From Tetraselmis striata (taxonomy: Eukaryota > Chlorophyta > Chlorodendrophyceae > Chlorodendrales > Chlorodendraceae), in contig VCJN01000195.1 of the NCBI GenBank assembly GCA_006384855.1, positions 124,001 to 188,000 on the forward strand: a stretch of 64,000 nucleotides of DNA, written 5' to 3'. Both the position numbers and the translations under genes were made by a program. Below are positions 4,001-62,480 of the stretch, in pieces. The number at the start of each line of letters is the position of its first letter. Positions within the stretch are counted from its first letter, which is position 1. A model generated the notes under the pieces. That model did no database searches. It worked only from the letters and a program-made list of their open reading frames with translations, and was not told the DNA's origin.

Positions 4001-7000
4001 CGACCCGCTGGCCTTTTCCAAGATCGCCAGCTGGATCCCGTACTCTGCGCCCGGCTGCACCTGCTCGCGGCTGATCTTTACAAACGACTTGTCCGTTGTT
4101 GTCAGCTGCAGCGACCCGCTCAGCACGCGCCACTCGTACGCAAAGTCGCTGCCGCAGGACAGGGCGCCCTGGATGGGGTTGAGCACCAGCGGCCGGCCAA
4201 CAGGGAACTCGATGACAGAGCTGCCGAAGTCGACAACAGGCAGCGGCGTAGACTCCTTGGCAAACGTCACCTCCACTGAGGTGGACACGCCCAACAGATT
4301 CTCCACCGACACCTCGAGCATGTACTCTCCCGCTGGCAACTCCGACAGAGCGGACAGCTCCAGCAGCTCGGCCTCCGACAGGTGAAGTTTGTCACGCACG
4401 AACTGAGCGCAGGCACGCTTGTGTCAGCGGTTCAGGGGACATCAAGAGGTGTTGGACAGGAAAACAGGCCGATGGGGGGCAGTGAGATAAAGCAATATAT
4501 AAAGAAACCCAGTCAAAACACGACACAGCAAGGCAAGGCAATAAGACACTACAATAGCACAATACAGGGAGAACACAACAATGGCAATACGACTACACAG
4601 AGCAATACAATAAAGGCGACAAAACAAAGACAGGGGCGCCCAGGCAAGACAGGACACGGCAAGACAAGGAAAGACAAGGCAATGTAATGCGGCCAATAAG
4701 GCGGTACAAAAGCACAACACAGGGCGAATACAACAATGATAATAAGGCAATACACAGCTATAGCATAATGGCGACAAAACAACGATAAGGGCGCCCAGGC
4801 AAGGCAAGCCAATGCGGCCAATAAGGCTGTACAATAGCACGATTCGAGGACAATAGATAACGAGACAACACAATACAACAAGGGGGACAAAATAACACAT
4901 AAGGGATCCAAGATATGACACAACAGTAAGCAAGGCGACAAGGTTCCACCCCGTCGCCTATCAAATAAGCAATGTAATGGGGGCGATAAGGTAATATGTG
5001 ATGGCGCTCACTTCACGAGCGTTAATCTGCTCCAGGTAGCTGTCAATCTCGGCATCCGCCAGGCCGGTGGACACACGGCTCCAGAAGACGTCGGCCCACA
5101 CCTCGCCCGCCGCAGGCTCGATGCTGATGGAGCCGCTGCCCACGTTGGAGCTAGCTGCCGCGCAGGTTTTTCCCCAGACACGGTTGTAGCGCAGGCGCGG
5201 CGCCCGCGGCGGCTCAGTAAGCGTGCCCCCAAATGACACCAGCAGGCTGCGATCCTCCGGCATGAAGGCGAAGGCACGGCCTCCCTCCGTCTCGATTGTC
5301 AGGTTGGAGAGCAGCACAAGGCTGAGCGGCTGCGTGGCGTCAAAGGGGCCGCGCTGCCCAATGCGGACCTCTGCCTTGCTGCCGCCACCACTCACGCGAG
5401 CGCGCTCGCCCAGCGCTTCTGCCGCACCCTCAAACACCTCGTCCGCAAACACGCTGAAGCGGCGCAGGGCCGGAACCTGCATGCGCATCATGCGTGGAGG
5501 GCGTCAGGCAAAGCGGGCGCCTCCCCCGCTTTCTCGATGTCAGGCAAGATGCCATTCCTACTGCTGCTGAGCATGTCATCGGCGTCACAGAGCGTGACAT
5601 GACAAAACACCCCGAGTGATTGGATAGGCTCAATAATGCCTGGGATGATCGAGGCAATAGCCGACATTTGCACTCATCCACACAACAAGGGCACCTCTTT
5701 GTGCCATACGTGGGGATGTTGGCGGGGGCATGGAGAACGAGGAGTGGGGCAGGGAGCATCACCGAGCTGGGGAACTCGATCGTGATTGATGCGCCGTCAG
5801 ACGCCAGCTCCGCCGCGAGTTCGCTTGCCCGCAGCTCCAGGGCCTCGGAAGCCTCGCAGATGCCGGAGCACTCAAAGGAGGGGTCGCTGGCCATCAACAT
5901 ACAGGCAGTTTTAGAAAACACTCTGAGAAATCATTCAGAGAAAATAGTGAACTCATGCGTTAATTAAGCCATGGTAAACATAGAAGTTGCACCGTGGATG
6001 GTAACAATGGCTCGCACGGTAATAAGAGCCCTGCGAAGTATAACACCGCTCGACAAATATAAACAAAACCGCTGCAGAACTACGGCGAATGTCCCCAAAA
6101 GTAGCTTGTTTAGACTTGTATAATGACGGACCGCAATCGCCACGGCATAAAAACAGTCCAATCGATGCATGTTTTAGCATGTAGTACATTTAATCATTTC
6201 ACCCTAAATTAATCAATTGCATGCCGGCACTATCATTGTAGGTATAAATATATGTCTTGAGAGCATATATCATGCTAGTACCTTTGTGCTTAATTACTGT
6301 TAATGGACTCAGAAGTTAGAGACACTTTATGCGTTTATATCAACACTTGCAGTGTTTCTGGATTAGGTGTTAGAGACACTTTATGCGTTTATATAAACGC
6401 TTGCAGTGTGTTATTCATACCGTACAGACAGAAATCAAATTCATCCGACGCTTTGCCCAAAATGAAGCTGCTGATTCATTGGTAGGGCGGATACCGGGAG
6501 GGTGACCGGCCATATACATGCAGTGCTGCACAAGCACAGTAGAGGCCGGGCGAGCCTCACATCTCATGCACGCCCTCCACGTCATCGCACTCAAAGTTGA
6601 GGCGCTTGCAGGCGGAATCAACGCTGCAGCGCATGCCGTCGCCACAGTCGGCATCCTGTAGGCAGGTGCTGGCCCTCAAGTCCTGCGCAGCGGCCTCGAC
6701 GCCCTCCCTCAACTGCTCCACAATCTCCGCATCGGCCTTGCCCGCCTCCCAAGCAAGCTCGTACGCCGTAATCAACTCGTACGCCAAATCCGTTCTGAAC
6801 CAGAGCAAGCACCGCAAATGGCCAAACGCAGCGATAAGTCAGTACTACGCATAACAGCCCAGGGCTTCCCACGGCAACCCGCTACGAGGCTTAGCGGCGC
6901 TGCAGGGGGATGCACTATGTTGCGCGGCATGACCGACACAAGCGCACCTGTAGGCCATGAGAAGATCGAGCAGGAGGTCCAGGCGGCCGTCACGAAAATT

Positions 7001-18345: not shown

Positions 18346-21065
18346 ATAATCGTCGTCCCGCGCGGATGGCCGCAGCATTTATATCTGCCCACAATTTTTT
18401 TGCCCCCCTTGTCAAGCACCAATTGTAGATTGGCCCATGATCAGCTCCCCGCCTTCGTTCCCGGCCGCGCCCTTCCATGTGCCATACGTGAACATGACTT
18501 CATGCGTGGGGGCAGCCCTAAATGGCGTTTGTTGAGCTCTCGTAAGAGCCATACGTTTGCGTGTCATTGTACTGGTCTAGTGATGAATTTGATAACGAAA
18601 TGTCACAAAGGCACGATTTTTTATAGCACGTATATGCGTTCTATGTGTACAGCTGCACGCCAAGAGTTAGCTCTATCATCGTGGTACACATTTACAACGG
18701 CGCGCTCTCCCCGCCGTTGGCATGCAAGCAAGTGAGCAGTTCCCGCAAAACGGTCAATGATACTGCAATTAAGGCCTGCTCCAAAACCAGCCAACCTACA
18801 GCCAATGTCCGCATTCAATGAGCCCTTGGTAGAGCCGGGCTTTAGGCCGTACTGCGCAGGGGTGCAGCCCCCAAGTCAGCGGGTGGGTCCATATATATGG
18901 TCACCTGCTAGGGCATTGTCTATGGTATGGGGTATAGGGCTGGCCATCAATACGCTCCCATATTCTGCTTTTTGGGGCTGCGCCTAGCGGGCCCCCACGC
19001 GGGGAAATCCGCCCACGCGGGGCGAGTACATCGTCTTTTTATCGGGATTAAGCCAGATGTGAGTCGCGCATTAGGCCACTGTATTAGGGTTTGTAGGAAC
19101 ACCTAAGAACATTTGCATCGGCCCTACCCCCCTCGGGTATATGTCCACAGAGGGTCCCGGCAGGATTTCAGCCTGCGCGGAGCGGAATCACGAGCGTACC
19201 AGGCAGCCCCCGTCCGCCACCTATCACATCTCAAACCGTTGATGAATATTCGAAGATACTTATATCATAGAAATGTGCCACTGTACCACTCGGAAGTCCG
19301 CAACACCTGTGTTGCGCCGCCCTCCAGGGCGCCGTCCTCGCCAACCCGCCACACGCGCACGGTGGGCTCCCGAGATCCACAGGCCAGGGCGCGGCCATCA
19401 GGCGCCCACGCCACTACGGTCACCCAGTCAGTGTGGCCGTGCAACAATTGCGGGGCGCCGCCATCCGCTGCGCCGTCCTCGCCACTCGCCACACGCGCAC
19501 GGTGTTGTCGTCGGATCCGGCGGCGAGGGAGCGGCTGTCGGGCGCCCACGCTAAGGCGGTAACAAAGTCCAGCAGCTCAGAGGTGAGAGACTGGAAATCA
19601 AACCCGAATGGCTTTGCTGATCGCGTGCGGCCCTGCAGCGCTTGCGGGGTGTTGCCCGTCTCCACCGCGCCGTCCTTGCCCACGCGCCACACGCGCACGG
19701 AAGCATCCAGATAACCGGAGGCCAGGAAGCGGCCGTTGGGCGCCCATGCCACCGAGGTCACACCCTCAGTGTGGCCCCGAAGGACTTGGAAGGTGGCGTC
19801 CTCCACCGCGCCGTTGGTCCCCACCCACCACACGCGCACGGTCGCGTCGCGGGAGCCAGAGGCCAGCGCGCGGCCGTCAGGCGCCCACGCCACTACGGCC
19901 ACCCAGTCCGTGTGGCCCCGAAGCTCCTGTGAGGCGCTGCTCTCCACTGCGCCATCGCAGCCCACCCGCCACACGCGCACAGTGGCATCCTTCGCTCAGG
20001 TGGCAAGAGAACCGCCGTCTGGCGCGCACGCCACCGATCTCACCCAGTCGGTGTGGCCATGGAGCACCTGCGGGGTTCCGCCCCTCAATGGACTGTCCAT
20101 GACCACCCGCCACACACGAGCGGTGTAGTCTCCGGATCCGGAGGCCAGGGAGCGGCCGTCGCGTGCCCATCCCACAGAGTGCACCACCGTGGTGTGGCCC
20201 TTGAGGACCTGCGGTGCGCTGCCTTCCACTGCGCCGCCGATGCCCACGCGCCACACGCGCACAGTGGCCTCCCGAGACCCGGAGGCCAGGGACCGGCCGT
20301 CCGGCGCCGACGCCACAGCGTTCACGGTGCCAATGTTGCCCCGCAGGACCTGTGAGGTGCTGCCGTCCACTGCGTCGTCCTCGCCCACGCCCGCCACACT
20401 TGCACGGTACCGTCCCGGGACCCGGAGGCCAGGGCGCGGCCGCCAGGCGCCCATGCCACAGAGAGCACCATCCAAATGTGGCCCCGCAGCACTTGCGCGG
20501 TGCTGGCCTCCAAGGTGCTGTTATCGCGCACTCGCAAGACACGAACGGACCAGTCCTGAGACCCGGAGGCCAGGGAGCGGCCGCCATGCGCCCATGCCAC
20601 CGAGAGCACCCCGCCGGCGTGACCCTGCAGCACTTGCGAGGCATTGCTCTGCACCGTGTCCTCGTCGCCTAACCGCCACAGACGCACGATGGCATCCTAC
20701 AAGCCGGAGGCCAAGGACCGGCCATCAAGCGCCCATGCCACTGATGTCACCGGGCCAATGTGCCCCCACAGAAAGAGCGGGGGCCTGCTTCCGAAGGCGC
20801 CGCCCTCGCCCAGTCGCCACACGGACGCCATATCATCATGCGACCCGCAGACCAGGGAGCGGCCGTCCGGTGCCCATGCCACGGATGTCACCTAACAAGC
20901 GTGGCCATGCAACACCAGCGGGGCGCCGCCATCCGCTGCGCCGTCCTCGCCCAGCTGCCACACGCGTACAGTGCGGTCCCATGACCCCGATGCCAGGGAG
21001 CGGCTGTCGGGCGACATTGCCACTGAGGTCACAAAGCCGGCGTAACCCTGCAGCACCTGCAAGGG

Positions 21066-21086
21066 AGGGGGGGGGGGGGGGGGGGG
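21066..21086. repeat. poly-G tract serving as poly-C before a splice acceptor
   Basis: In the sense of the WD40 pseudogene this is a C run followed by TCCCTTGCAG and then a WD40-coding exon ([13 protein letters not shown]). It looks like the polypyrimidine tract of an intron acceptor. Confidence 0.6.
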
Positions 21087-22276
21087 TTTAGGTGCCACAC
21101 CCTGAGTATTAATTCCAAACATTTGACGCCACATCCTCCCTCCATATTTGGCGTATCCGGGCTGGCAAGGAAATCAGCATCGCTCTTGTTTGTGACGGAC
21201 CCCAGGACGTCATTGTAGTATTTATCACTGCAGCAAAGGAGGTCATGGACATGCAGCCCCTGCGCACCTCTGCGGTGTAGTGCCACGGCTTCTGGAGCAA
21301 CGAGCGCCCCGCATCAAGGACGGTGGTGTTGAGGAAGGTTGCGACCTCCCCCGGCAGCCGTGCCAACATCTCCCGGAGCACTTTGAACGCCATGTCGCCA
21401 GCGTGCGGCATCGGGGCAAACTTGGTGCGGCATAGGCAGGCCGCGGTGGCCTTGTCGCTGTCGCTGGCGGTCACCGCGGCTTCGAATGCCAAATGCTCCG
21501 CCAACTTGCGTGACTGCTTGGCCTCATCCCTCGCTCTCTGCGCCTCCTGGGCGCGCTGCTCCGCCATGGCCCCCGCTGTCTCTCCCTCCCAAGCGCGCTG
21601 CTCCGCCAGCCCCTTGGCTGTCTTTGCCTCCCAGGCGCGCTGCTCCGCCGTCTGCTCCGCTGACAGCGCCTCATACTGGGAAGTGCGCGCTTGCTGCGCC
21701 ATCAACGTGCTTCCATCCATGCCCGCCACCAGCACAAGCACCAGCAGCGCCCCCAGCGCCCTCATCAGCCTGCGGCGCCGGCTTGAGTTCCGTCTCGAGG
21801 CTGAAAGAAACTCCTCCATGCCACCTGTCGGCCGAGGGTTGAGGCTGTGGCACTCTGCGTCCTGCACCCACTTTCCCCAGAACACGGCCTCCCTATCCTG
21901 CAGCAGCAACACCGGCGCCTTGGCTGCCACCGCCGCCTGCCACATGTCCTGCCTTGCTCTTCAACTTTGCGTGCTGCTTCTGAATCACCAGGTCGTCCTG
22001 CTCCACGAACGACTGCGCCACGCGGAGCATTGCATGCCAGTCTTCTTCGCTGCCAAGGGCTCCATCGCGTATGCCGCAGTCGCACAGGTTGATGGACGAC
22101 AGGCCGCTGAAAAGCTCGTGCATCACGCGCACATACATATGGGCTGGCCCGGCACCACCTGCTCCCTGGCATAGGTGCACAACCGCTTTCCAAACTCTCC
22201 ATCGTTGTACATTGCCGTCACACCCACACGCACACCCATATGCATGTGTAAATGTATTATGGGTAGCATCATCAGA

Positions 22277-29266: not shown

Positions 29267-30559
29267 TATGACCCGTTGCATGCGCGGTAGGAAATTACGG
29301 CATGTTGACTCATATGTGTTGCGATCATTGTTGCATGTATCAATGATCGTTCTTGCAAATTTCCAAAAATATCTCATGGTCATTTCAATATGGATATCTA
29401 CGACCGGTAAAAAATGCGATACACTAAGGAAAGTTCGAGTATGTCACACATGTATGTTTTGCTTGGCATTGCAACAACGTATCTTTCCTTCTCTTCTCTT
29501 AATTCGGTATTAACACAAACTTTGCATAGATATGTTCACGTGTTGCATGGTTGTACATTACAAAAATTCTGCAAATGGTGAGGAGCAGTATAAAACGGCA
29601 TGTAACATAAATCAATTGATTGTAAGGTAAAGCCATTGAAATAATACGTTTCTGCACGAGGGTCAAAAGTTGAAATTACAGTGGTGCCATAACAGGGGCA
29701 TACAACCATGTCTTTGAATAATGTCCGATCAAAGTACTCCCATGTTGCATTCAGATGGTTTATGTTTTCGTGAATGCTTGGCAAGCCGTGTTTTTCCCAT
29801 GATATATCCGCCATGTCAAGCGCAAATGCAAGGAAATCAAGGTGGGAAAATGATTTGATTTTTCTTACAGCACGTCATACGTACAACCGCTTTGGATGTC
29901 CTTTAATATTCGAAGATTTCCGTCACCTTTGGTCAAGTTCTGGTCAGAATAATTTGCATTCCTTGCTCGGCGCAATGCCGGAGCAAGCCAATCCATGCTT
30001 CAACTTTGGTCACTTTTGGTCAAAGTCTCGTTTGGAGTTCTTGCTTGGCCCTAAGCCAGTCGCATGCCACTCCAGGCTTCGGAGTGCAGGCAACACACAC
30101 CACTGCAAACCGCGTGCACTAATGCGGGACTACTGGGTCCACGACATCCAGGAGCTGTGGCCTTTTGACCCGGGCAGGAAATAAGGTGTACAATAGTTTT
30201 CAGAGGGTTGAAACGGTAAAACTACTAATACTACAATCGACTGTGCGCCTTTTCTAAGGGCAAGCACAGCTGAGGACGATATGCGAGGTTCTATGATTTT
30301 CCGGTGACTGTGTGGAACTCCGCACCAAGGCATTCCCGGCCTTTCAGCCCGAGTCAATATGCCAGCTGATAGATTTTATTTTTTCGACTGTGTCGGCAAC
30401 CATGTCCTCCTCCGCAGATTACACAACCACATAATTAGATCAAGTACTCCATGATAGACTTTACTCATGATGTAGACCTAGGTAGCTTCTATGCGTTATG
30501 AACTAAGCACACTCATGTATACACGTGGATGCATATTGTCAAACTTGCGTACACATAAG

Positions 30560-31250
30560 TTTGACTCAAAATCATTCACTTTCATACAAGTTCATACGCA
30601 GCATTTTTCGTACTACAACAGCATGTCACGCGACGACGAGGAAACTGACGATGCTAACCACATGATTAACGTGCATCGATTTACTTGTGTGGTAAAAGAT
30701 AACCAGTTATATCATTCGGTGCCGTGCCAAGGGCAACTAAAATTACCTATATATGTGACCATATAGCCGGACTCAAAACTTTCGTACACATATCTTCTGC
30801 CTCAAGAGTACACACTTTTAAACAACTTCATTAACATGATTTTTCACAATATAAAATGTCACGCAACGATGAGGACAATGACGATGCCGAACACATGATT
30901 AGTGTGCAGCGATTGAGATTTATCGTATGAAGAGAACGAGTTGGAGCGTTCGGTGCCGTGCCAGGTAGGGGCAACAAAAAATCCTGATATGTGACCATTT
31001 AGTCGTCGGCTCAGAATTTACGTGCACCTAAATTTTGACTCAATATCATATCCACTTTCATACAGCTTCATAAACATCATTTCTCATACTACAACATGTC
31101 ACGCAACGAGGAGGACAATGCCGATGCCGAACATATGATTATTGCAGTGCATCGATTCACATTTTTCGTAAAAGAGACCGACTTATAGCTTTCGGTGCCT
31201 TGTCAGAGGCAACTAAAATTCCAAATAACTAACCAGCCATATAGTCGGAC
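30560..31250 (+). repeat. three tandem copies of a small ORF unit
   Basis: Three units of about 235-240 bp. Each has a short plus-strand frame starting MSR-(D/N)-(D/E)E: 30623-30766 (47 codons), 30856-30930 (24 codons) and 31098-31190 (30 codons). All share an acidic stretch, then A-(N/E)-HMI and an H/Q-R motif, and are preceded by a CTTCATAAACAT-like leader and followed by TTCGGTGCC. The second and third copies end early by stop codons. No family is recognised; it could be the decayed repeat unit of a satellite or of a mobile element. Confidence 0.6.
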
Positions 31251-51400: not shown

Positions 51401-52222
51401 TGCCATCAAAATGCCCGGGACCACCAAAGGTCCGCCCTACTGGTATGGGATACCAGTCCTACCCGTTGGGCCTCGGCCCATTCGACGAGTAATATGCGAG
51501 TTGGAGCAAGCCCCATCCCACGGAGCAAAGCATTTCGAGAGTGCGATACGGGTACATGTAAGGCAACAAAAAAGGCATGTATGTGAGGGAGGGTCGACGC
51601 CATAACTGGAACATTTTCCCATTCCCCGTAAAATCCAGGGCGCCGTGAGCGGACCCCGTCCAAAATAAGAGCAGCTTAAAAAGCCCAGCTTAAAAGGTCT
51701 AGGCGCGATAACCTGACTAATTTAATATAAAATCCCTTAACTCCGGAACAAACAACCCCAAATTTTGACGGTGACACCCTCACCGAAGGCACTCCGTCCA
51801 CCAACATATGTTCGATAGTCTCAAATTCACCTCCGCCACATGCAGGGCAGTGTTCAAGGAACCGCTCTGGCGTGGCATGAATCCGGGTCAATCAGCGGGT
51901 AGTGGGAAATACTCGGGTGCGTAATTGTATCATAATGTGCAGCCCGGCCATGACCCACATTGTATTGTGGCAACGGGTTTGACGCATAAGGCTAATGGAC
52001 ATGTATACCCCATGTGTTCGTACGGGCTAACGCTGCCGACAATTCGTAACGCGCCTACACCGATGCCTTTACTAGTTTATTAGCGGCATCGCGCGCGGCT
52101 AGTGACCTCCCCTCAAGTGGAAGGTCATGCGCCCCCTCAGCTAGCCCTACGTTTGCCCTAGCTAGTCGATCTAACCACCGCACAGTCCCCGACGTCCACG
52201 TGTTAGGGCGCGCCCGACTTGG
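51400..52222 (-). pseudogene. non-LTR retrotransposon, C-terminal part (RNase H end and zinc finger)
   Basis: On the minus strand the frame entering at 52,222 reads PSRARPNTWTSGTVRWLDRL and, further on, LEGRSLAARDAANKL, like the end of an RNase H domain, and stops near 52,055. Lower down, CPACGGGEFETIEH (about 51,825) matches the C-terminal CPxC...ET..H finger typical of non-LTR retrotransposons. Frames are broken. The partner half lies at 61,667-62,480, on the other side of the MULE. Confidence 0.65.
52211..52222 (+). repeat. 12-bp target duplication, left
   Basis: CGCCCGACTTGG, repeated at 61,667-61,678 at the other edge of the transposon. Confidence 0.85.
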
Positions 52223-52281
52223 AAAAAGGGCAAATATCGAGTCAAAATGGGCACATTTACGGACTCGAAAATGTACCCCCC
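52223..52281 (+). repeat. left terminal inverted repeat of the MULE
   Basis: The core ATATCGAGTCAAAATGGGCA, then CATTTACGGACTCGAAAATG and TACCCCCC, is matched exactly in inverse orientation at 61,606-61,655. Confidence 0.92.
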
Positions 52282-52282
52282 T

Positions 52283-52325
52283 TAACTCGGTTTTGCACCC
52301 CCCAAGGGGGGTGCAAAAACTGAGT
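52283..52325. repeat. long perfect hairpin just inside the left TIR
   Basis: TTTTGCACCCCCC-AA-GGGGGGTGCAAAA is a 13-bp perfect stem with a two-base spacer. Pairing extends outward through ACTCGG/CTGAGT with one mismatch and one bulge. Inside the right TIR there is a shorter hairpin, ATGTACCCA-AAAAG-TGGGTACAT, at 61,561-61,583. Confidence 0.85.
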
Positions 52326-52591
52326 CCCGCCCAATACCGTACGAATGTACGGCAAAACTGGCCTTTCACACATTCTTGCCAGCACTGTACGAGGTACCCT
52401 TCATCTGTACTGCACTATGTACTACACAACAGTCCACCGCCCCTTGACGAGATGCGTCGCTACCACTCCATGGTAACCGTTTTTGCCTCGAATGCTACTC
52501 CGCCGCTGTTCTTTTCACTCCTCTATCACTCGCAAGCACCCTCGCGCTTTTGTTCAGGGAGGCATCTTCACGCATCTTGGTTCACAAAAGC

Positions 52592-55500
52592 ATGGCAGAC
52601 CGTCCTCGCAAAGGAAAACGCACCTCTGCCCGGTTGAAGACTCCGGTGGCGGGGGCATCTGCAGCTGCGCTTGGCTTTGACCCAACGAGCAGGCCTCTCG
52701 ACACACTGCTAGTGACCCCCATGGCGCAAGATTCTCCGCAGATGCACTTGCGTTCGGGCAGGAGGGCGTCTCAGGCTCCAATACCCACGACTCAGCCCAT
52801 AAGGCCCCTGCAACCGAGCGGTGGGCAACAGCGAAGCGGACCGCCATGGCCTTGGTACGGAGATTCGCAGCCTTTGGCTGAGCCGGGGCCTCAGCCTAAC
52901 CCCCAGCCTCAAGGCGTGCCACCTTTGGACCCACTCCCCGGAGCGACTCCAACGGTACGCGGACTCGCATCTTCGTTAGCGTCACTCATCTCGGCGCCGT
53001 GGGCTGCGTTAAGCGCATCTCGCCATCGCGCATCTCAGGGATCTCAACTCACCCAGACCGATGTCGAAGAGTCTGGAGCCGGTCAAGGTCAACCTTTGGC
53101 CACGATTCATGAGGACAAGCTCGGACAGGAAGAGGAGGAGGAGGAGGAGGAGGAGGGGGAGGGGCCCAATACTGTCGGAGGGTGTCCGCCTGGACAAACG
53201 AGCCCCGCCACAAGCGCCACAAGTGGGAGCAAAATGGTAACCCCTCGCCCCTTGTCAACAGAACCTCAAACATGTGCGCATCTTCGCGCGTGAGGGGAAA
53301 GATTCTCACACGTTCCCCCCCCCCCCCCCCCCCTTTCCCTACATAGACCATCTCCACGACCCCCCTTCAACAAGAATCGCCACTTGTCGACCCAATGCTC
53401 GGCGAGTGGAACTGCTACGAGCGGGACTTCCCTGCGTACTTCGCCACCTGGCCCGAACCACAGGACGGGCATCCCGACGACTACAAGGAGCATCACAAGC
53501 TCTTGACAAGAGTCATTCGCAACGTGGTTAACGTGTCGCCCAACTCGAACTTCTTCTTCATGCCTTGCCTCCACGCCATCGTGGACCTCTTCCCTTGCCC
53601 TGAAGGTATGGAGCTCCGGGTGCCCATCTCGGTCTTTGACAAGCGCCACCTTGGCCAAGACGCCGCGAAGACGTGGGAGTTCATCGTCGTCAGGTTTCAA
53701 AGAAAGACATACCGCGTTCCCGAGAAGGGCAAGCTCGTCGTGTGGCTAGACATCGTCACGACTCCAGGGCACTTCGCGTTTGCTGTCTGGCAGTCGCGAG
53801 ATGGTGCCTTGGTCGCCCCTGTCTTCATCTACGACTCCTGCGTCTCAGTCAAGGTACCCACCCGCGCCATCCCCTACTCCGGTTGGCAAGCTGTTTGGCT
53901 GGAGATTTCTAGGCCTCCCTCCCTGGGGGGGTGGAACCCCCCACCCCCTGGCCACGGCTTCTTCCACGGGGTCGTCACGCAACAAAGAGACGCCAGCACC
54001 TGCTGGGCGAGATGCGTGCTTGCAGCCAGAGCCATCGCCACGTTCTTCTTGTGGAGGTTCTTCGTGAAGATGCCTGTTCCAGGCCACAGCGGTGTGACCG
54101 AACCCCCCCAGCTCCTCATTGGCGACGACGATGTCGACACATTGGCCAAGGTTTGGGCACCCTTCTTCGAGTGTGCGCACATCTCCGAGAACCCCTCCTT
54201 CAACACCAAGGACCGTCTGGATGTTGTTTACCCGCATCTCCACGGCAAGCTCACGAGATTCCCCATCGAGTTCTTCCCCTTGGCCACAAATTCACCCTGC
54301 TTCTCGGTGGGCAACTTGCCGCAAACTGTCAGGCACTTTGGCTTCTCCGACACAGCCGCGAACAAGATTGCGCTGACTCTCGACATTGTACCGACCAAAG
54401 TGTTCACGAGCACTGCTGCAAGTGGTGTACGGAAGCTGTGGGTGCGTGCGCTCCCTGAGCCTCATAACGAGCACGCCTACGCCGACCGCAAGAGGGCACT
54501 CCAAGAAACCAATGGCAGCCAGGGAGCATGGCCGGAGACATCTTGGCAAGATGCCGTGGAGTCTGTCCTCTTCGTTGAGTGCCAGAGTAGAACTGTGAAA
54601 CACTGTGGCTACTCGATTCGCAGCGTGCGCGAATGGCACAACGACTACGAGATGCGGCGCGGCATTCAACATATCAAGAACAAACGCTTCACGAAGTCCA
54701 CCAACACCTGCCAGCCCTGCCGAGGGAGCTCGGCACCCCGCACCGTCTTGGTCGACAATCGCTACTACCAGGTCGTAGCGGCGCCTCGTCAAGTTGGCGG
54801 GTCCTCCAAGCCCGCATCTCAACCACCGCCAGCGGGGTCCGGTGGAGATGGTTCCCAAAAAGGCGCTGCAGCAGGTCTCCTCGAGCTTCGAGCAGCTCCG
54901 CCGCCTCCCCCCAGCAGGCTTGGTCCCTCGGTGACTGCCAAGCCGCCGAGTGAGTCTCAGCCTTCGGTAGCGACGAAGCGCTCGCACGGTGCGTTGAGCA
55001 CAGGAGGCAAGACCACCTTGTCGCCCATGAAGCTGCGTAGGAAGCATTCCGAGAAGCGCGGGCCGAGTCCTCCTTTGAAGATGGCGACAGAATTGGAGGA
55101 CGACGACCCCTTCCAGGCGCCTAAGCCGAAACGCGAAACCCGGTCAAGCCGTCAGGCGCCTTCGGGTGCCGCTGCTGGAAGTCGCCTTGCCACATCTTCC
55201 CAAGGCGGTGCCCCATCCCTGCGTCCCCGACCCACATCTCCGCCCAAAAAGGCCTCATCTCGGGACGCAAAGCCCGTAACGCCGCTTGCACGGACATCTC
55301 GGCCTCCTACTCTCGCACCAACAGTCTTCCGCAGGCCTAGGACAGGGAGCACTCCAAGTGCACCCAGGCTCGGCTTCCAGCGGTATGCTCCTCTCCCTCC
55401 CCTTCGTGGGCAGCCTGCACCCACGCCCCTCGCTGAGCGACTTGTCGCGCCTCGCCTTGTCGGGGAATCTCCGCCAATCACCGACCCCACCGTCGCCACT

Positions 55501-57723
55501 CTTGTCGGCAACCAAGACTTCCTTCAAACACGCGTCCGCTCGTTTTTTGGGTCCCAAGACCTTTGCGACCGCGTCGCTGACCTAGGGGACAGGCTGGTCG
55601 CTGCACGTCTTGCCGGTTCCCTTGGTGAGGAAAAGGCGTGGACCTTCATTGGAGGCGGCAGGAAGCAGCTGCATCTCGACATGAGTGGTGACACCAGCCC
55701 CCTTTCCCATTCCTTATTTACGTCCTTGTTCACCAACGACCTCTAACACCCCTCGACCCGCAGGCTTTGATGACCTGAGACTGCGGGGGAGGGGCGGGGA
55801 CGACAGCACGGTGAACATGCGAGCCTTCCTGGCCTCCGATGAACACCGGCTTGTGTACAACGAGTTGCGGGGGATTTGCAACGAGTATGTCCAAGAAGCT
55901 CACCGGCAGCTACGAATCTCGTCCCCTGGTTACATTGCCCGGCACAAGGCCCTCATCATGGCAGACCCGGACTGCGGCTCGGGTCCTGCCCATGTAGATG
56001 GCGTGGCGGGGGGGCTCCTCCTCATCATCTTTCTCAATTGCTGTGCGCCACTGACTGCCGTCCGGAGGGGGAGAGATGTGACTATCGTCGACGCCTTGAA
56101 GTGGGCTGCACCTGGAATCGTGAGCCTCCCCCCCTTCCCCAACACCCCTTTTCGCCTTCCACAGTGCCATTGTGTTTTAGACACCAGTAGGGTGGAATCT
56201 CACCCTCGCGTGTGACTCTCACTACATCTTCGCTCAGTGGGAAGTGGCTGCAGCCTCGTCGCTTGGCGTCGTGCCGTGGCTGGAGCAGAATCGGCCGGAG
56301 GTCCTTGCTGAGCTCCGGAAGGTTCGGAATCTCTGCACTGGGCGCCTCGCTCAGAGCAAATCTCTCGTTCCCCTCGGCGTCGTGGACGACCGGTACCGCA
56401 TGGACGTCTGCGCTGGAAACGAGGACGCTGCGACATACTCGCGCCCTGGTCTTGCTTTTATCGTGCCTGCACAAGATGTCCACGCCAGCCCACCCAAGGG
56501 AGGCGTCAACCCTGCGTTCGCAACAAGATGCCCGAGATGCAAGGAAGTTGCGGGTGTCAGCCCTTGCTTCCGCATCTTCCTGAGCTTGCACCCCAACACA
56601 GGCGCCATGATGCCAGGACCGGAGTGGCAAATTCTGTCCTACCACGTCCCCGGCATGGCTGCCTTCCTGCCTGAAGTCGACCACAAGGACGAGGCCTACC
56701 GTCGCATGCACGAGACAGCGAGAACCATGGCGGCGGCGAAAGAGATGCGGCACTGGAGCCCGGAGGCCCACATTGGGGACGACGACTACATCCTGGAGGA
56801 CGTCAAAGCAGCGGTGGGTGAGGCCACCGCAGGCAAGACTGACGAGCAAGAGATGCGGAGGGTGGAGAGAATTAACCGAGAGGGATGGGATTACCCGCAT
56901 CTCCGCAGTGGGGGCAGGTGAACGCCCGCATCTCTCGCGTACAAACCCGTCTACTATCGCTCCGACCTCTTGTAACCACGAGTCGCTTTCCGTACCCGAC
57001 TTCCCTGCGTGGTGGAACCGTTGAAACAGGCTGTTGCGCCGGATTTTACCGGAGATTGGTGATACGCTGTCAACGTACGCAGCTCGCTTGACTGCGGGGA
57101 TGCCTGGCGCGTGGTCGGAGCACACGCTGAAACGCGGGCACGCTCTTTACCGCAAGATGTTGGGCAATAACCCACCGTGCATCTACACATCTCCGTGGGA
57201 GTATCACTGCTTGACGGCCTGCGTTAAGACTTGGCGACAGGTCTGCGTGTGGGATCCCTGCAGCGGCTTCGCCGGCACGGCACACGCTCTGTTCGGGAGG
57301 GCCAGGAGGGTTATATTGAGCGACATCAACCCGTCTCGCGTGTCCCACTTCGTCGCCGACGCTTTGTCGCCGGAAACACACGACAAGGCCACTGCCCTGT
57401 GCAACGAGCCCTTTGTCGTCGTGACGTCGCCTTGGTTCAGTCACTTGGACTTTCTCCTACCGTTGCTGGCGGCCTCCAATGCGGATATCAGCTGCGTGCA
57501 GATTCCGAGCACCTACTTGACGCAAGGCCCCCTCCCGCGAATGGACTACCTCGACAGTCTGTTGACAGCGGGTCGTGTACTTATCATCGCGTCGAAGCAC
57601 CCAAGAAACCCCGACACCAACAAACGCGCCTTGTGGTTGGTCGTCGGAAGAGATTCGGCGACTTTAACGGCGCATCTCTCGGAGCACCTCGCCAAGCAAC
57701 GTGGGTTCGTGTATGGTCCGTGA
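52592..57723 (+). CDS. transposon-borne fusion: Ulp1-like protease, probable 2OG-Fe(II) dioxygenase, DNA methyltransferase-like
   Basis: Exons 52592-53236, 53347-55687, 55764-56119, 56238-56917 and 57030-57723 are all GT-AG with matching phases, giving 1,571 residues. Residues 1-215 are Pro-, Ser- and Glu-rich and disordered. The C48/Ulp1-like cysteine protease has His357 (GHFAFAVW), Asp378 (FIYDS), Gln428 and Cys434 (QQRDASTCWARC). A long basic, Pro/Ser-rich linker covers about 700-960. Residues 997-1,230 look like a 2-oxoglutarate/Fe(II) double-stranded beta helix: GPAHVDG (His1072, Asp1074) followed by LLLIIFLN, then QDVHASPP (His1196) and CFRIFLSLHP (Arg1226); the first-to-second His spacing is long. 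Residues 1,400-1,560 are a SAM-dependent methyltransferase-like domain: motif I VWDPCSGFAG, acidic ILSDIN and motif IV VVVTSPWF, close to the SPPW of N6-adenine/N4-cytosine enzymes but with one Pro. The protease call is fairly sure, the methyltransferase likely, the dioxygenase tentative. Confidence 0.75.
53311..53346 (+). other. poly-C polypyrimidine tract and acceptor of intron 1
   Basis: A run of about 20 C, then TTTCCCTACATAG, directly before exon 2 of the fusion gene. The phase on both sides fits only this acceptor. Confidence 0.75.
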
Positions 57724-57840
57724 CAGGGGAATCAACATTAGTCATAATCGACGATCATTAGAAACTGTTTTCGACAGCAGATTAGAGTTTAATCGTCTCT
57801 CGTCCGTCGATTTCACAAACCGCATTTCCTTTATTATTGC
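57724..57840. other. 3' flank of the fusion gene
   Basis: AT-rich stretch between the stop codon and the minisatellite, likely 3' untranslated sequence. I cannot place a polyadenylation site. Confidence 0.4.
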
Positions 57841-58264
57841 GCCCGGGGCAGCGGGGCGCCAACGAGCCGCGGCCCGGGGCAGCGGGGCGCCAACGAGCCG
57901 CGGCCCGGGGCAGCGGGGCGCCAACGAGCCGCGGCCCGGGGCAGCGGGGCGCCAACGAGCCGCGGCCCGGGGCAGCGGGGCGCCAACGAGCCGCGGCCCG
58001 GGGCAGCGGGGCGCCAACGCGGCGCGGCCCGGGGCAGCGGGGCGCCAACGCGGCGCGGCCCGGGGCAGCGGGGCGCCAACGCGGCGCGGCCCGGGGCAGC
58101 GGGGCGCCAACGCGGCGCGGCCCGGGGCAGCGGGGCGCCAACGCGGCGCGGCCCGGGGCAGCGGGGCGCCAACGCGGCGCGGCCCGGGGCAGCGGGGCGC
58201 CAACGCGGCGCGGCCCGGGGCAGCGGGGCGCCAACGCGCCGCGGCCCGGGGCAGCGGGGCGCAT
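57841..58264. repeat. 31-bp GC-rich minisatellite, 13 units plus a partial one
   Basis: Unit GCCCGGGGCAGCGGGGCGCC followed by AACGAGCCGCG. Units 1-5 end GAGCCGCG, units 6-12 end GCGGCGCG, unit 13 ends GCGCCGCG and unit 14 is cut off. The ordered variants show block amplification. It lies between the two convergent transposon genes. Open frames on both strands come from the lack of stops in the unit and are not genes. Confidence 0.97.
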
Positions 58265-58329
58265 CATATTGTTCGCCAAAATCAGTATGTACCTGCAGAT
58301 CATCTGACTTTTGTTGTGTTGTCTGGGTA

Positions 58330-58563
58330 CTAATAGTCTTCTTTCATAGTGGCTATAAAGAATGATGCTGCCTCTGCAATTTCAACTGGTCCAGCAGAGG
58401 TATGTAGCAGCTTAGCCATCTGGTTTGCAGAGAAGATGCTCACCACTGCTGGTATGGGTTCGATCTCACAGCCAAACAGTGTTGCATCTGGCTGTCTCTC
58501 GTGCATGGTTCCATCAGCCCAGTAGTGCATATCCGGATAATTCTTTGACCTATGAATACGCAT
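58330..58563 (-). CDS. small ORF of unknown function inside the MULE
   Basis: A 77-codon ATG-started frame (MRIHRSKNYPDMHYWADG...) with ordinary composition, ending FFIATMKEDY. It lies downstream of the transposase stop on the same strand. It could be a separate small gene, an alternative last exon of the transposase or chance. No family recognised. Confidence 0.3.
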   Translation of the reverse strand: MRIHRSKNYPDMHYWADGTMHERQPDATLFGCEIEPIPAVVSIFSANQMAKLLHTSAGPVEIAEAASFFIATMKEDY

Positions 58564-58774
58564 AATATGACATCGCAGTTACTGGAGACACTGGGGAGGC
58601 AAACAGAAAATAGCCTCTGTGGTATAACCATCTTCAAAGTGATGCGTTATTGTCACATAGTGTCAAGAGAGTTTATACGTTGTACCGTCTGCGAATTCTC
58701 CTCGCAGAAGTGAGACTCGTACGTCGGATCGCGGAGTGCCATTACAAATTACGCCTTTTACATAAGCCATACTG

Positions 58775-61336
58775 CTACGATCTGCGGGCAGTTTTCCTTA
58801 ATTTACGCCTCGCCCTGCGTCCACTGCCGCCCGCGGCAGGGGAGGCGGAAGGAGATGGACCCCCCGTACCCGTTGCCGCCCGGAGATTCCCGCGCTGCGG
58901 CACCGCGTTTCCGCGACGGCGCTGCGACGCGTTCCCGCCGTCTTGGGGCTGCCGCACTAGAGCCCCAGTAGGACCGCGAGGCCGATGCCTGCCTGGACGG
59001 TCGCTCATGTCGCCTGCCAGCCTCTCGAGTCGCATCTTCTCCGTAGGGTCTCGTAGGGCACCCCACAGAAGCTGGTGGGAGCAGATGCCGTACAGCCAAA
59101 AGCGCTCGCAGTCGCATCTTGGCTGGCCGTTTTGAAGGGTCACTCGATTAAGGAAGAGGAAGTCCCGCTCAATCGCCTGAATCGTCCAACGCGGCCTGCT
59201 TCCCACATTTCCGGCCAAGCTGTTGCGGTACTTCAGCACCGCTGCTCTAGTGACGCTACGAGTGCCAATCTTGAAGGGGTCGCCCACGACATACAACGCC
59301 TCGTCGACCTCCATATGGCTTCCCTCTGCCTGCAGATAGTCAACCGCGAAGTGGACGTCCGTCGAGAGCTCCATGCGGAAGGCAGGGTTGATAGACTTGG
59401 TGCCGCGCTTGTACGTCTCGTCCTCCAGCCACTTTGGGAAGTGCTTCTCCATTAGGGAGTCGGTGGGGTTGCGCAATCCCTTGGGAAAGGCGTTCTTGGC
59501 AGCATTGTGCCACCCTTCCATGCTGTTATTCCTGGCGGGAACTCCCACGAAGGTGGAGGCGCTCGACCACCAGTCCAGGTTGGCGCCCAAATAATTGTCC
59601 TCGAACCACCGGGCGACTGGCCCGGGAGCTGACCTGGCCATCACTTGCAACAACTTGGTCCCGACTGCCTGTGCCTGTTCCTCGGAGCGGCAAGAGTGAA
59701 TCACCTTCACACACAATTCGCACACCTTCCACTCGTGCTCCCCTCGGCATACCTGGACACGTCGACCGTTGACGCTCGTCGTGCCCTTCTTGAACTGGAA
59801 CTTGTGAAGGACATGTATCCAACACCCTATGGTCTGCAAGAGATGCACAGCGTGACCGCCTCAGCGGGGGAGATTCGTACCTATTGTCACGAGATTCCAC
59901 CGAGATGCGTCAAACGGGGGGAGGGGCGGGAGGCGGGGGGGGAGGGGGGGGGGGCGCACCCTCGCAGTAGGGAAAACGTTTCTTTTGGCGACGCGAATTC
60001 CGCCCCCTTTGTCGCTCAAGAGCCCGCGCACATTGGGCGAACTGCCATACAACATCTTGTGCGTGTCCATCGTCGCCTGGAACAAGAGGGTCATCGCTGC
60101 CCCATCCTCCTCTTGCGCGAAGCAGAACGAGATTGGGCGGAAGCTGTGAACGAGGGCGTACTTCTCCATGTCATACTCGATCGAGTGGGTGCCCAGGGTC
60201 AACAGGACCCACTTACCGTAGTGAATCTTGTGCGTGCCGTCCGTGGCGAGGCAGAGTGGGAGACTTCCCGTTTCGGCGAGGCGCAAGGTCCTGAAAAGGC
60301 CCATCGTTGTGAACACCACTCCTTTAGCCTCCTCGCTGAACCGTAGGACAACCAACTTGTCGTCTTCCAACGGCGCGTCGCTGTCACCGGAGTTCGGAGG
60401 TGGCATCTCGTTGCGACGAGCCCAATCTCTGAGATCGGCAATAGACTCGTAAGCCCGGGGCCCCTTCTCTGCGCGGGTGAGGCTCTTTTTCCAGGCTTTA
60501 AACGCCACTCGCCACGCCCTCGCGTCCGCAATCTTCCTGTCTTCTTTGTTAAGTTTCTCCACAAGTCGCATTGGCGCGTCGTCGATGTGCTCCTTCATCT
60601 GGGCTTTAACTCGCTGGGGAATGCGAACTTTGCCGTCCACGACGACGTCAACCTCCTGCTGCGAGTGGAGGCGGTGGTCGCGCTGCATTTGCCAACGCTT
60701 GCTCGCCGAATCATGACAGATGCGGAGATGCGCGGGGCAATTAACGTGGGAGGCGCAGTTATACACCTGCCGATAGCCACGCCTTGTTAGTGAATACAAT
60801 CGTGGAACATGCGAAGATGCTGGTACAATATGCCTATGCTTCAGACAACACGACTGAGGAGCGCTCACATACGCGCCCTTGCTGGTGTATTGGTGCCTCC
60901 ATTCGTCCATCATCCAGGTCAACTCCTTCACTGCGGCTTGCCTTGTGAGAAAGGTTGCATCGCCAACCTTCCTCCAATCGAATCTCACACGCTTTTCCGC
61001 CCCTTGACAAGAAGCGCTCCCCCGCCCGCGGGAGCTTGGCGAGGGTGTTGGGCGCTTGCTTTGCTGGCTTTGCGGGCCGGTACCGGCCCGTTCCGGACCC
61101 GTACCGCATGGAGGCGCGGTGTAGAACGGTCCACCTACCTCCGAAGGCAGACACGGAGAAGGGGCGAGCCCATGTAGCAACTGTCCAGCAACGGCATTCA
61201 CACCCTCTTTGAAAAGCTTGTCTCTGTGATCCGGTTGAAGGGGCAAACTGTCTAGGAAGGAGATGTAAGGCTGAATTTGCTCTTGGGCCTGGCGAAAGGC
61301 TTCGCTGGCTTGCGGGGCAGAAGAACGGTCGGCCAT
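58775..61336 (-). CDS. MULE transposase with SWIM zinc finger
   Basis: Exons 61336-59960 and 59833-58775 (intron 126 bp, donor GTGCGC, acceptor TCTTGCAG, phase 0) encode 811 residues. The N-terminal zinc-binding-like part contains YNCASHVNCPAHLRI followed by DHRLHS, as in many MULE proteins. The DDE catalytic residues are Asp366 (LATDGTHK), Asp442 (GLLSDKG) and Glu565 (NNSMEGWHN). The SWIM finger is CDCERFWLYGICSH. Asp442 is followed by NVFPTAR-TIGCWIHV across the intron, the expected order for this family. The C-terminus is basic and Ser-rich. It cuts and joins the TIRs of the surrounding element. It starts MADRSS, and the fusion protein on the other strand starts MADRPR, which may be coincidence or shared 5' DNA. 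Confidence 0.9.
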
Positions 61337-61605
61337 GACGGCAACAGAAGTACGTTAAAGAGAGTGGAGTGCAACACAGTGGTGTGGACTCGAGAGTGGG
61401 GCGAGGAGTGAAATCTCCAACGGGGTGAGTCACCACGGGGCGCAAAAGAGCGCCGCCACCTAGGTTGAGGCGGGTAGTACTTTACGCTGAACAGGGCGCG
61501 AAGGGTACACGGCGAATTGTCATTGTTAGTACTCTCGTATAGTCATAAATTGCACCTGAAATGTACCCAAAAAGTGGGTACATATACGAGTCTAAGTGAT
61601 CACGT
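61337..61605. other. 5' flank of the transposase gene
   Basis: Likely promoter region between the transposase start and the right TIR. No definite TATA box on the minus strand; contains the short hairpin at 61,561-61,583. Confidence 0.4.
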
Positions 61606-61666
61606 GGGGGGTACATTTTCGAGTCCGTAAATGTGCCCATTTTGACTCGATATTGCCCCCTGTACC
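61606..61666 (-). repeat. right terminal inverted repeat of the MULE
   Basis: Inverse of the left TIR. The outermost bases (TACAGGGGGCAATATCGAG when inverted) differ slightly from the left end. Confidence 0.92.
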
Positions 61667-61678
61667 CGCCCGACTTGG
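61667..61678 (+). repeat. 12-bp target duplication, right
   Basis: CGCCCGACTTGG, pairing with 52,211-52,222. On the minus strand it encodes the PSRA residues that appear on both sides of the insertion. Confidence 0.85.
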
Positions 61679-62480
61679 CTGATCTACTAAATAGTTTATA
61701 CATGTATTCAAGTCGGGTGCTTTGAGAAACGCCCGAGCCCGTGCCGCAGCGGCGGTAGCCTCTATATAGGCGCAATATCCAATTCCCGTATCATCGGTAG
61801 CAAGTGGCAACCGTAGGGGATGCACTACGGTTGCCACTGCAGGGGAAACTGTAGGGTTGCCACTGTAGGTGGCAACTGTACGGGATGCAGTGGCAACCGT
61901 AGGGGAGTTTTTACCCACCCCAATAAGGAACCACGCAAGCACTGATTGCTGAGTAAGGTTTATTGTAATTTATTTGCGCCGATAGTTCTATCCATACCCC
62001 ATACTTCACACCCGCAAGTTAGAACTGGTAGTACACAGGTTTTAAAGACAGACACACGCACAATAATATAGGAATAATGTCCCGTCCACCGACTAATACC
62101 GAATCGAGCGCCGCGATGGCCTGATTATTAACTCGGTTGTCTACTATGTGCCGCATACCTAGATCCGAGTTAATGACCGTACCCAAATACGTATATTCGT
62201 TTTGTCGCTACACCCTTACAATCCTTATCCGTTCTCCCCCAAGCTGCAATCGGGCAGCTTGTTCGCGTAACCCGGTCTCGTCGGAATGTCGGCCAAATGC
62301 CACCACCCCACACTTAAGTACCCCAAACCCCATAAAATGGTCCTCCGCCCATTGCGAGAAGTGGGCGAACATGGCATGCAGGTTATCGAACGAGCATGGG
62401 ATACCAACAGCGTCGTCCGCGTATAGTCGCTAACTGACCCGGCACCCGTAGAGGTTGCCTTGCCGCTAATGTGTCGGTGC
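61667..62480 (-). pseudogene. non-LTR retrotransposon, RT palm and start of RNase H
   Basis: On the minus strand YADDAVGIPCSF (about 62,418) is the reverse-transcriptase catalytic motif, followed by FSQWAEDHFMGFGVLKCG, the usual palm continuation, and EYTYLGTVINSDL. Further on DDTGIGYCAYIEA and LKAPDLNTCINYLVDQPSRA suit RNase H. The frame then meets the 12-bp repeat and continues in the same frame at 52,222. Stops occur just before YADD and after RIVRV, so the element is dead. Confidence 0.75.

Follow-up and report, generated by a model that had tools for sequence, protein, structure and literature searches.

A Mutator-like element of the green alga Tetraselmis striata carrying a predicted methyltransferase joined to a protease-like region

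Described transposons and the Tetraselmis element

Several kinds of transposon are known to carry enzymes that act on DNA or chromatin, represented by SET genes, TET/JBP genes, DNA methyltransferases (DNMTs), Dam-like methyltransferases and the VANC and KIU systems. The element described here lies in a 64,000-nucleotide stretch of the core chlorophyte Tetraselmis striata (contig C155, positions 124001-188000; hereafter the window), and inverted-repeat search with junction comparison of its copies delimited it to 9,446 bp at window positions 52221-61666. On the sequence evidence it is an autonomous Mutator-like element (MULE) of a green alga, and its near-identical copies argue that it was recently active. 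It has a minus-strand transposase gene and a convergent plus-strand accessory gene, and the C-terminal domain predicted for the accessory protein is well supported as a class-I methyltransferase by profile homology and modelled fold.

Elements of the MULE/MuDR superfamily have target site duplications (TSDs) of 8-11 bp, terminal inverted repeats (TIRs) and a SWIM finger, and extra open reading frames are common among them (PMC6446971). The Tetraselmis element agrees with this description in its 10-bp TSD and its TIRs, and it has presumed D-D-E residues and a putative SWIM-like finger. The extras listed in the group table of the same source are FAR1, SET, PMD, OTU and DUF, and the word methyltransferase is absent from its main text (PMC6446971). 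In Arabidopsis, the VANC proteins of VANDAL elements relieve silencing within their family by binding its non-coding, rapidly diverging tandem repeats (PMC10398659), and the KIU variants, whose elements are non-TIR MULEs, carry an Ulp1 domain (PMC13317346). The VANC/KIU systems are alike to the Tetraselmis element in combining a transposase with a large accessory gene, in their non-coding tandem repeats and, for KIU, in the Ulp1 domain, whose Tetraselmis counterpart is putative. However, no methyltransferase is described for them in the part of the account cited here (PMC13317346), whereas the Tetraselmis element has a predicted one, together with clear TIRs and a chlorophyte host; the likeness is one of described layout.

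Base- and chromatin-modifying cargo was also compared. In Phytophthora, MuDR and Harbinger elements carry SET genes, and numerous transposon lineages of fungi carry TET/JBP genes (PMC12730594). The fungal TET/JBP DNA transposons resemble the Tetraselmis element in their putative DNA-base-editing cargo, but they carry a dioxygenase, which is unsupported in the Tetraselmis element, and neither MULE nor MuDR is among the transposon lineages that the abstract names (PMC12730594). Dam-like adenine methyltransferases are found in DIRS retrotransposons, and DNMTs in long interspersed nuclear elements (LINEs) and DIRS elements of the dinoflagellate Symbiodinium (PMC5890265), so that these too are transposable elements with a DNA methyltransferase of their own. 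They are, however, retrotransposons, the Symbiodinium enzymes are of the C5 type, no protease-like fusion is mentioned in the cited section, and the relation to the DIRS Dam-like family is one of description. Finally, the phage family phrog_799 (e.g. Sinorhizobium phage phiLM21 p027) has motifs co-linear with those of the Tetraselmis methyltransferase and gave a profile match with an expected value (E) of 1.5e-8. It is a stand-alone gene with the motif NPPF in the phages examined, whereas the Tetraselmis counterpart is the C-terminal domain of a multidomain protein and reads SPWF. No report of a MULE with a phage-type DNA methyltransferase was found among the matches listed in a search of the open-access literature, which is not proof of novelty.

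Overall, it is suggested, with a probability of roughly 55%, that this autonomous MULE encodes an accessory protein which puts a mark on DNA or chromatin, probably to counter silencing. A factor that marks the element itself or opposes silencing was favoured because the layout resembles that of VANDAL and KIU and adds a methyltransferase. The minus-strand transposase would cut and paste anything between the TIRs, and the accessory protein would bind DNA of its own element, for which a 31-bp tandem array is the candidate site. Its methyltransferase would methylate element DNA, probably at an adenine or cytosine amino group, and its protease-like part would remove SUMO or a related modifier from chromatin proteins bound there; both activities together would counteract silencing by the host or label the element so that its transposase can find it. 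A more specific form of this proposal is tentative and rather improbable as a whole. It holds that, in a green-algal MULE lineage, a phage-type amino-methyltransferase fused to a SUMO-protease-like region serves as a self-marking, sequence-specific anti-silencing factor which writes N6-methyladenine (or N4-methylcytosine) via the array and clears SUMO-dependent repressors. Such a system would be comparable to VANC/KIU but equipped with a DNA-modifying enzyme of its own, and retained in two, probably three, diverged MULE families. If active, the protein would be a naturally occurring DNA writer fused to a protease-like domain in an algal mobile element, of interest for transposon-host conflict, and self-marking against silencing would be readable from long-read methylation calls over near-identical copies with and without the gene. 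The features of the element are listed in Table 1.

Table 1. Coordinates of the element, its genes and its target site in the window
Feature	Position	Strand	Basis or remark
Target site duplication, left copy, 10 bp	52211..52220		Junction comparison
5' terminal inverted repeat	52221..52281	+	61 nt; matches elsewhere in the genome
Accessory gene exon 1, low-complexity N-terminus, length variable between copies	52592..53236	+	Predicted exon
Accessory gene exon 2, Ulp1-like region (about aa 230-470 of 1,571) and long basic/proline-rich linker	53347..55687	+	Motif order H...D...Q...C; no profile match
Accessory gene exon 3, first half of middle domain	55764..56119	+	Predicted exon
Accessory gene exon 4, second half of middle domain	56238..56917	+	Predicted exon; family-2 alignment
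Accessory gene exon 5, class-I methyltransferase domain (DPCSGFAG, SDINP, VTSPWF), stop 57721-57723	57030..57723	+	Profile homology, fold match
31-bp G+C-rich tandem array, 13.6 units, between the convergent genes	57841..58262		Tandem-repeat analysis
Transposase exon 2 (CWIH, SMEGWH, SWIM-type CxC...CxH)	58775..59833	-	Motif reading
Transposase exon 1 (ATDGTH, LLSDKGG)	59960..61336	-	PF10551 match below cut-off
3' terminal inverted repeat	61606..61666	-	61 nt; matches elsewhere in the genome
Target site duplication, right copy, 10 bp	61667..61676		Junction comparison

Boundaries, transposase and copies of the element

The two TIR arms were 92% complementary, and those of a diverged subfamily of copies, subfamily B, were 71-nt arms extending into the flanks at 76%. 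Across copies the element started with GG and ended with CC: the 5' ends shown (window, L059, L060 and L001-L008) began with GGAAAAAGGG and the 3' ends shown finished with ACC, while the terminal 19 bp at the 5' end of L061 were missing where the contig ended inside the element. The initial annotation had placed a TIR-bounded element at 52223-61666 with a 12-bp target duplication. Its matching TIRs and its right end at 61666 were retained, but the left end was moved 2 bp outwards to 52221 because the copies compared start with GG. The duplication was 10 bp long instead, and perfect, in all five elements with both junctions available (window, C2337, C2246, C2461 and the subfamily-B copy on C626). 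The 12-bp version was rejected, as its two extra bases were the GG of the element itself, coincidentally present after the duplication too.

The transposase was predicted from two minus-strand exons with a product of 811 residues, and removal of the intron joined NVFPTAR to TIGCWIH. The D of ATDGTH, the D of LLSDKGG and the E of SMEGWH are the presumed catalytic D-D-E residues. CWIH and a SWIM-like finger stood in order with them; CDCERF...GICSHQLLW fitted the pattern CxCx(n)CxH by eye, and the Pfam SWIM profile gave no score. With TIRs and a TSD within the 8-11 bp range, these presumed motifs agree with the earlier assignment of the element to the MULEs. A scan of the genome (224 Mb, also used for the copy searches) showed 45 MULE-domain matches above the cut-off elsewhere.

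The genome copy counts are lower bounds, with 40 candidates scored per search (of 584 for the 5' end and 764 for the 3' end). The 5' 201 bp had at least 53 genome matches; at least 40 were complete or almost complete, and at least 18 had the top score (window included). At least 40 matches were found for the 3' 201 bp, at least 12 of these at about 100%, and at least 45 for a query of accessory exons 4-5, with at least 12 full-length at 99-100% and further ones at 88-98%. The many genome copies of both ends show that the structure is not due to chance. L059 and L060 matched the element end to end at about 99%, each with its own 10-bp TSD, L061 matched over its length apart from the 19 bp at the contig end, and L063, a subfamily-B copy with its own TSD, matched over the length at 86-88%, with a stretch near the tandem array aligning less cleanly. 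The genome search proposed with the initial annotation therefore left the fusion gene TIR-bounded in all four. The same copies make it extremely improbable that the locus is a chance juxtaposition or assembly chimera in which a gene of the host or of another element lies between the TIRs in the window copy only.

Inner DNA was read behind eight 5' ends, of which two matched the element unbroken over 1.7 kb and six led into shortened, rearranged derivatives. Behind twenty 3' ends, ten were unbroken over 1.7 kb (window included), eight were shortened rearranged derivatives and two had internal deletions. The non-autonomous derivatives (L021-L028 among the 3' ends; L001, L002, L004, L005, L007 and L008 among the 5' ends) kept the TIR ends with accessory-gene pieces rearranged between them, and L022-L028 have most of one arrangement in common, which suggests recent amplification. 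In addition, the element seems to have inserted into an older LINE. The flanks at window 51676-51891 and 62019-62207 (both minus strand) resemble fragments from the C-terminal end of a LINE reverse transcriptase, with the LINE-like motifs CPACG...ETIEHML on the left and YTYLGTVINSDLG... on the right.

The accessory gene and the conservation of the gene pair

Splice prediction reproduced the five-exon model and the product of 1,571 residues with a single terminal stop, and GT...AG was present at all five predicted introns of the two element genes. The two convergent multi-exon genes of the initial annotation were likewise both open in the window, with five plus-strand and two minus-strand exons under the predicted splicing. 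An alternative exon-4 acceptor at 56181, which would add 19 residues, was rejected because it left subfamily B with a length difference of +1 and copy C2337 with a TAG in frame; with the acceptor at 56238 the frame is open in subfamily B and the TAG of C2337 is intronic. Both frames were open in three of the five full copies read (window, L059 and L060). L061 had a frameshift in accessory exon 1 and a stop in the transposase, and L063 kept the accessory frame with AT at the last acceptor and a broken transposase N-terminus.

The accessory gene is under purifying selection. Between the window and subfamily B the synonymous rate (dS) was 0.24, the non-synonymous rate (dN) 0.079 and dN/dS 0.33 (bootstrap 0.27-0.40; 1,560 codons), with values by part of 0.40 for the Ulp1-like region, 0.17 for the middle domain (aa 996-1260) and 0.20 for the methyltransferase. 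The ratio and the open frames together indicate that the gene was kept functional while the element spread. Protein database searches scored candidates sharing exact words with the query (in two of the searches the 7,987 and 7,997 candidates sharing most) and matched 3, 5 and 5 proteins, each a T. striata model; relatives in other algae may exist. The aligned pieces of model P0005 were 96-100% identical to the window. The EukProt Tetstr1 models P0003-P0008 omit some of the accessory gene and contain what appears to be a translation of the tandem array; P0007 and P0008 join the gene to other sequence.

A second family (family 2) had, at many loci, a methyltransferase 39-41% identical to that of the window. 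At one of its loci, L064, the convergent transposase was 32% identical (E 1.4e-27) and the N-terminal domain of the accessory gene 26% identical (E 2.6e-5) to those of the window, both in two-sequence comparisons with no composition correction. A family-2 gene model also matched aa 467-644, which follow the protease-like core (E 1.5e-9). L064 is a deletion derivative and was rejected as proof that family 2 is without the middle domain; the two L064 exon pieces were about 3.3-6.4 kb apart on most other contigs with both, 10.9 kb apart on C1487 and 0.1 kb apart on C860, like L064. A third group of eight loci was 34-40% identical to residues ~24-149 encoded by the family-2 exon. Four of the eight contigs also had, at a distance of 6 to 17 kb, a convergent MULE domain above the cut-off. 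The pair of genes, present in two diverged MULE families and probably in a third, is thus old.

Capture of the accessory gene as a passenger without function for the element, in the style of Pack-MULEs, was considered very unlikely. MULEs do capture gene pieces (PMC6431247), and many non-autonomous copies carry partial or rearranged pieces of this gene. Passengers would be expected to decay, whereas here a full-length open frame was found in several copies, dN/dS was 0.33 over the 1,560 codons, and the same pair was present in a family about 40% identical.

Two further observations concern family 2. An open frame beside the L064 element (L064:8148-9209) had a NUDIX-like domain at E 5e-4 and 20.4 bits, just below the cut-off of 21.1. 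The family-2 models P0016 and P0017 contained a translated minisatellite with a unit of about 32 residues, so family 2 seemingly has a tandem array as well, at another position.

Domains of the accessory protein and other features of the window

The methyltransferase-like C-terminus named in the initial annotation was upheld by the match to the phage DNA methyltransferase profile and by a class-I fold. The motifs TxPW, W(D/E)P, SD..DYG, F..D, (S/N)P.F, R and W were co-linear with phrog_799, at about 15-25% identity to the phage methyltransferases. Foldseek assigned the predicted structure of the domain to the class-I methyltransferase fold, and the closest row was an m6A DNA enzyme. The domain may have descended from phage-type DNA methyltransferases or have common ancestry with them. 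Since motif IV does not read NPP(F/Y), it was regarded as homologous to phrog_799 but not as a plain member of that family; SPWF was found in the window and in all 11 translated family-2 copies. A scan of viral contigs with the methyltransferase profile gave 53 stretches with no relative confirmed, and a search of plasmids for methyltransferase relatives gave none. The C-terminal half of the domain (residues ~112-232) was present at dozens of loci, among them ones on contigs C1019, C746, C2346 and C1116, with more than one on some contigs; C1019 had three such halves at 592-bp spacing.

In exon 2, GHFAFAVW...FIYDS...QQRDASTCW presents His, Asp, Gln and Cys in an order and spacing that resemble those of yeast Ulp1. 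H121, D142, Q191 or Q192, and C198 (segment numbering, alignment A6) were identical in the window and subfamily B. An Ulp1-like cysteine-protease region is plausible from these residues. The tandem array had 17.6 units in L059 and 20.6 in L060, and in L063 the same place was occupied by 13.9 units of 30 bp; its position is kept, and the number of units and the unit itself drift.

Several results weigh against a self-marking DNA methyltransferase with a protease partner. Motif IV is SPWF as against NPPF in the phage relatives, atypical though kept in the Tetraselmis families. The hhalign match to phrog_799 (probability 95.5) was obtained with a thin Tetraselmis profile (Neff, the effective number of sequences, 1.4), and a direct PHROG scan matched one of three members, from family 2, with no match for the other two, including the window. 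Direct searches of Pfam, NCBIfam and PDB with the methyltransferase gave nothing significant, and five phage records were matched at E 0.2-0.6 only. Because phage methyltransferases were part of the alignment behind the structure model, the fold match is not independent; its query-normalised TM-scores were modest (0.34-0.48), and the Foldseek list also contained non-adenine enzymes, among them COMT, FtsJ and spermidine synthase. Many of the VIA-align neighbours are methyltransferases for RNA adenine or the 2'-O position of rRNA, so the target may be RNA. The 31-bp array unit has only three adenines and is a poor fit to adenine methylation of the array. For the protease-like region, profile and sequence searches with exon 2 or its sub-regions gave no C48, Pfam or PDB match, a C48 profile scan of the genome gave five matches with none on C155, and AlphaFold2 returned no usable model of the Ulp1-like segment (predicted local distance difference test, pLDDT, 31). 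The Ulp1/C48 protease claimed from the sequence in the initial annotation therefore stands for residue order and spacing, and not for profile, PDB or structure. Finally, the spliced transposase scored E 0.0053 and 17.6 bits against PF10551 (MULE), below the cut-off of 27.6.

The accessory protein could instead be a transposition cofactor or host-interaction factor, with a methyltransferase that acts on RNA or protein or just binds S-adenosylmethionine or DNA, and with a part in complex assembly, target choice or timing. This is the main rival account, though the less probable one. It would suit the atypical motif IV, the closest VIA-align rows, which were rRNA dimethyladenosine and 2'-O methyltransferases, and a gene that accompanies the transposase in two families and probably in a third. 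Maize mudrB is an accessory MULE gene, and such genes may serve complex assembly, target choice or timing. On the other hand, the sequence relatives of the domain are phage DNA methyltransferases, and an m6A DNA enzyme heads the Foldseek rows.

The initial annotation had also called a dioxygenase domain and had proposed that the cargo edits base methylation, adding one mark and oxidising another. In the window and subfamily B, the middle domain contains AHVDG followed by DVHASPP and CFRIF, by eye in the order of 2-oxoglutarate enzymes. A family-2 homologue aligned to it over 289 columns at 26% identity (E 8e-29, two-sequence comparison), its sequence being that of one family only, pieced from two copies (L165 from C1447 and the L064 tail) with exon joins assumed. 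In this homologue HVD is replaced by AVS, the second His by Val and the Arg by Tyr, and one nearby His is followed by RG and not by xD. The middle domains of the window, subfamily B and family 2 gave no significant Pfam, PHROG or PDB match, the best being DUF6768 at E 0.39 and phrog_36589 at E 0.5. A Tet_JBP profile scan of the genome gave no match either, but its controls matched nowhere, so absence is not shown. The residues conserved across the window and family 2 (CC-PL, NLC, CxxC and PxW) make the domain more like a structural or zinc-binding one.

A protein that both adds and oxidises a base mark, by its methyltransferase and a TET/JBP-like 2-oxoglutarate dioxygenase, is accordingly unlikely. 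The three motifs in both subfamilies, a dN/dS of 0.17 that places their stretch among the best conserved, and the TET/JBP genes on many fungal DNA transposons (PMC12730594) speak for it; the replaced ligands in family 2, the lack of a significant match in Pfam, PHROG or PDB, and conserved residues that suit a structural or zinc-binding domain speak against it. With the presumed iron and 2-oxoglutarate ligands absent from the related family and no profile match, the dioxygenase was dropped, and of the proposed editing the methyltransferase-like half that would add a mark was kept while the oxidising half was lost.

An Rfam search gave no match. Outside the element, a minus-strand open frame at window 2384-4423 had a REJ domain (PF02010, E 1.8e-25). 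An imperfect tandem array at 19660-21032 had a period of 141 bp, 9.7 units and 67% matches; the period equals 47 codons, which could, as a guess, match the unit of repeat proteins like WD40, and the overlapping frame at 20129-21088 had no Pfam match. A further tandem array with a period of 240 bp and 2.9 units was located at 30541-31218.

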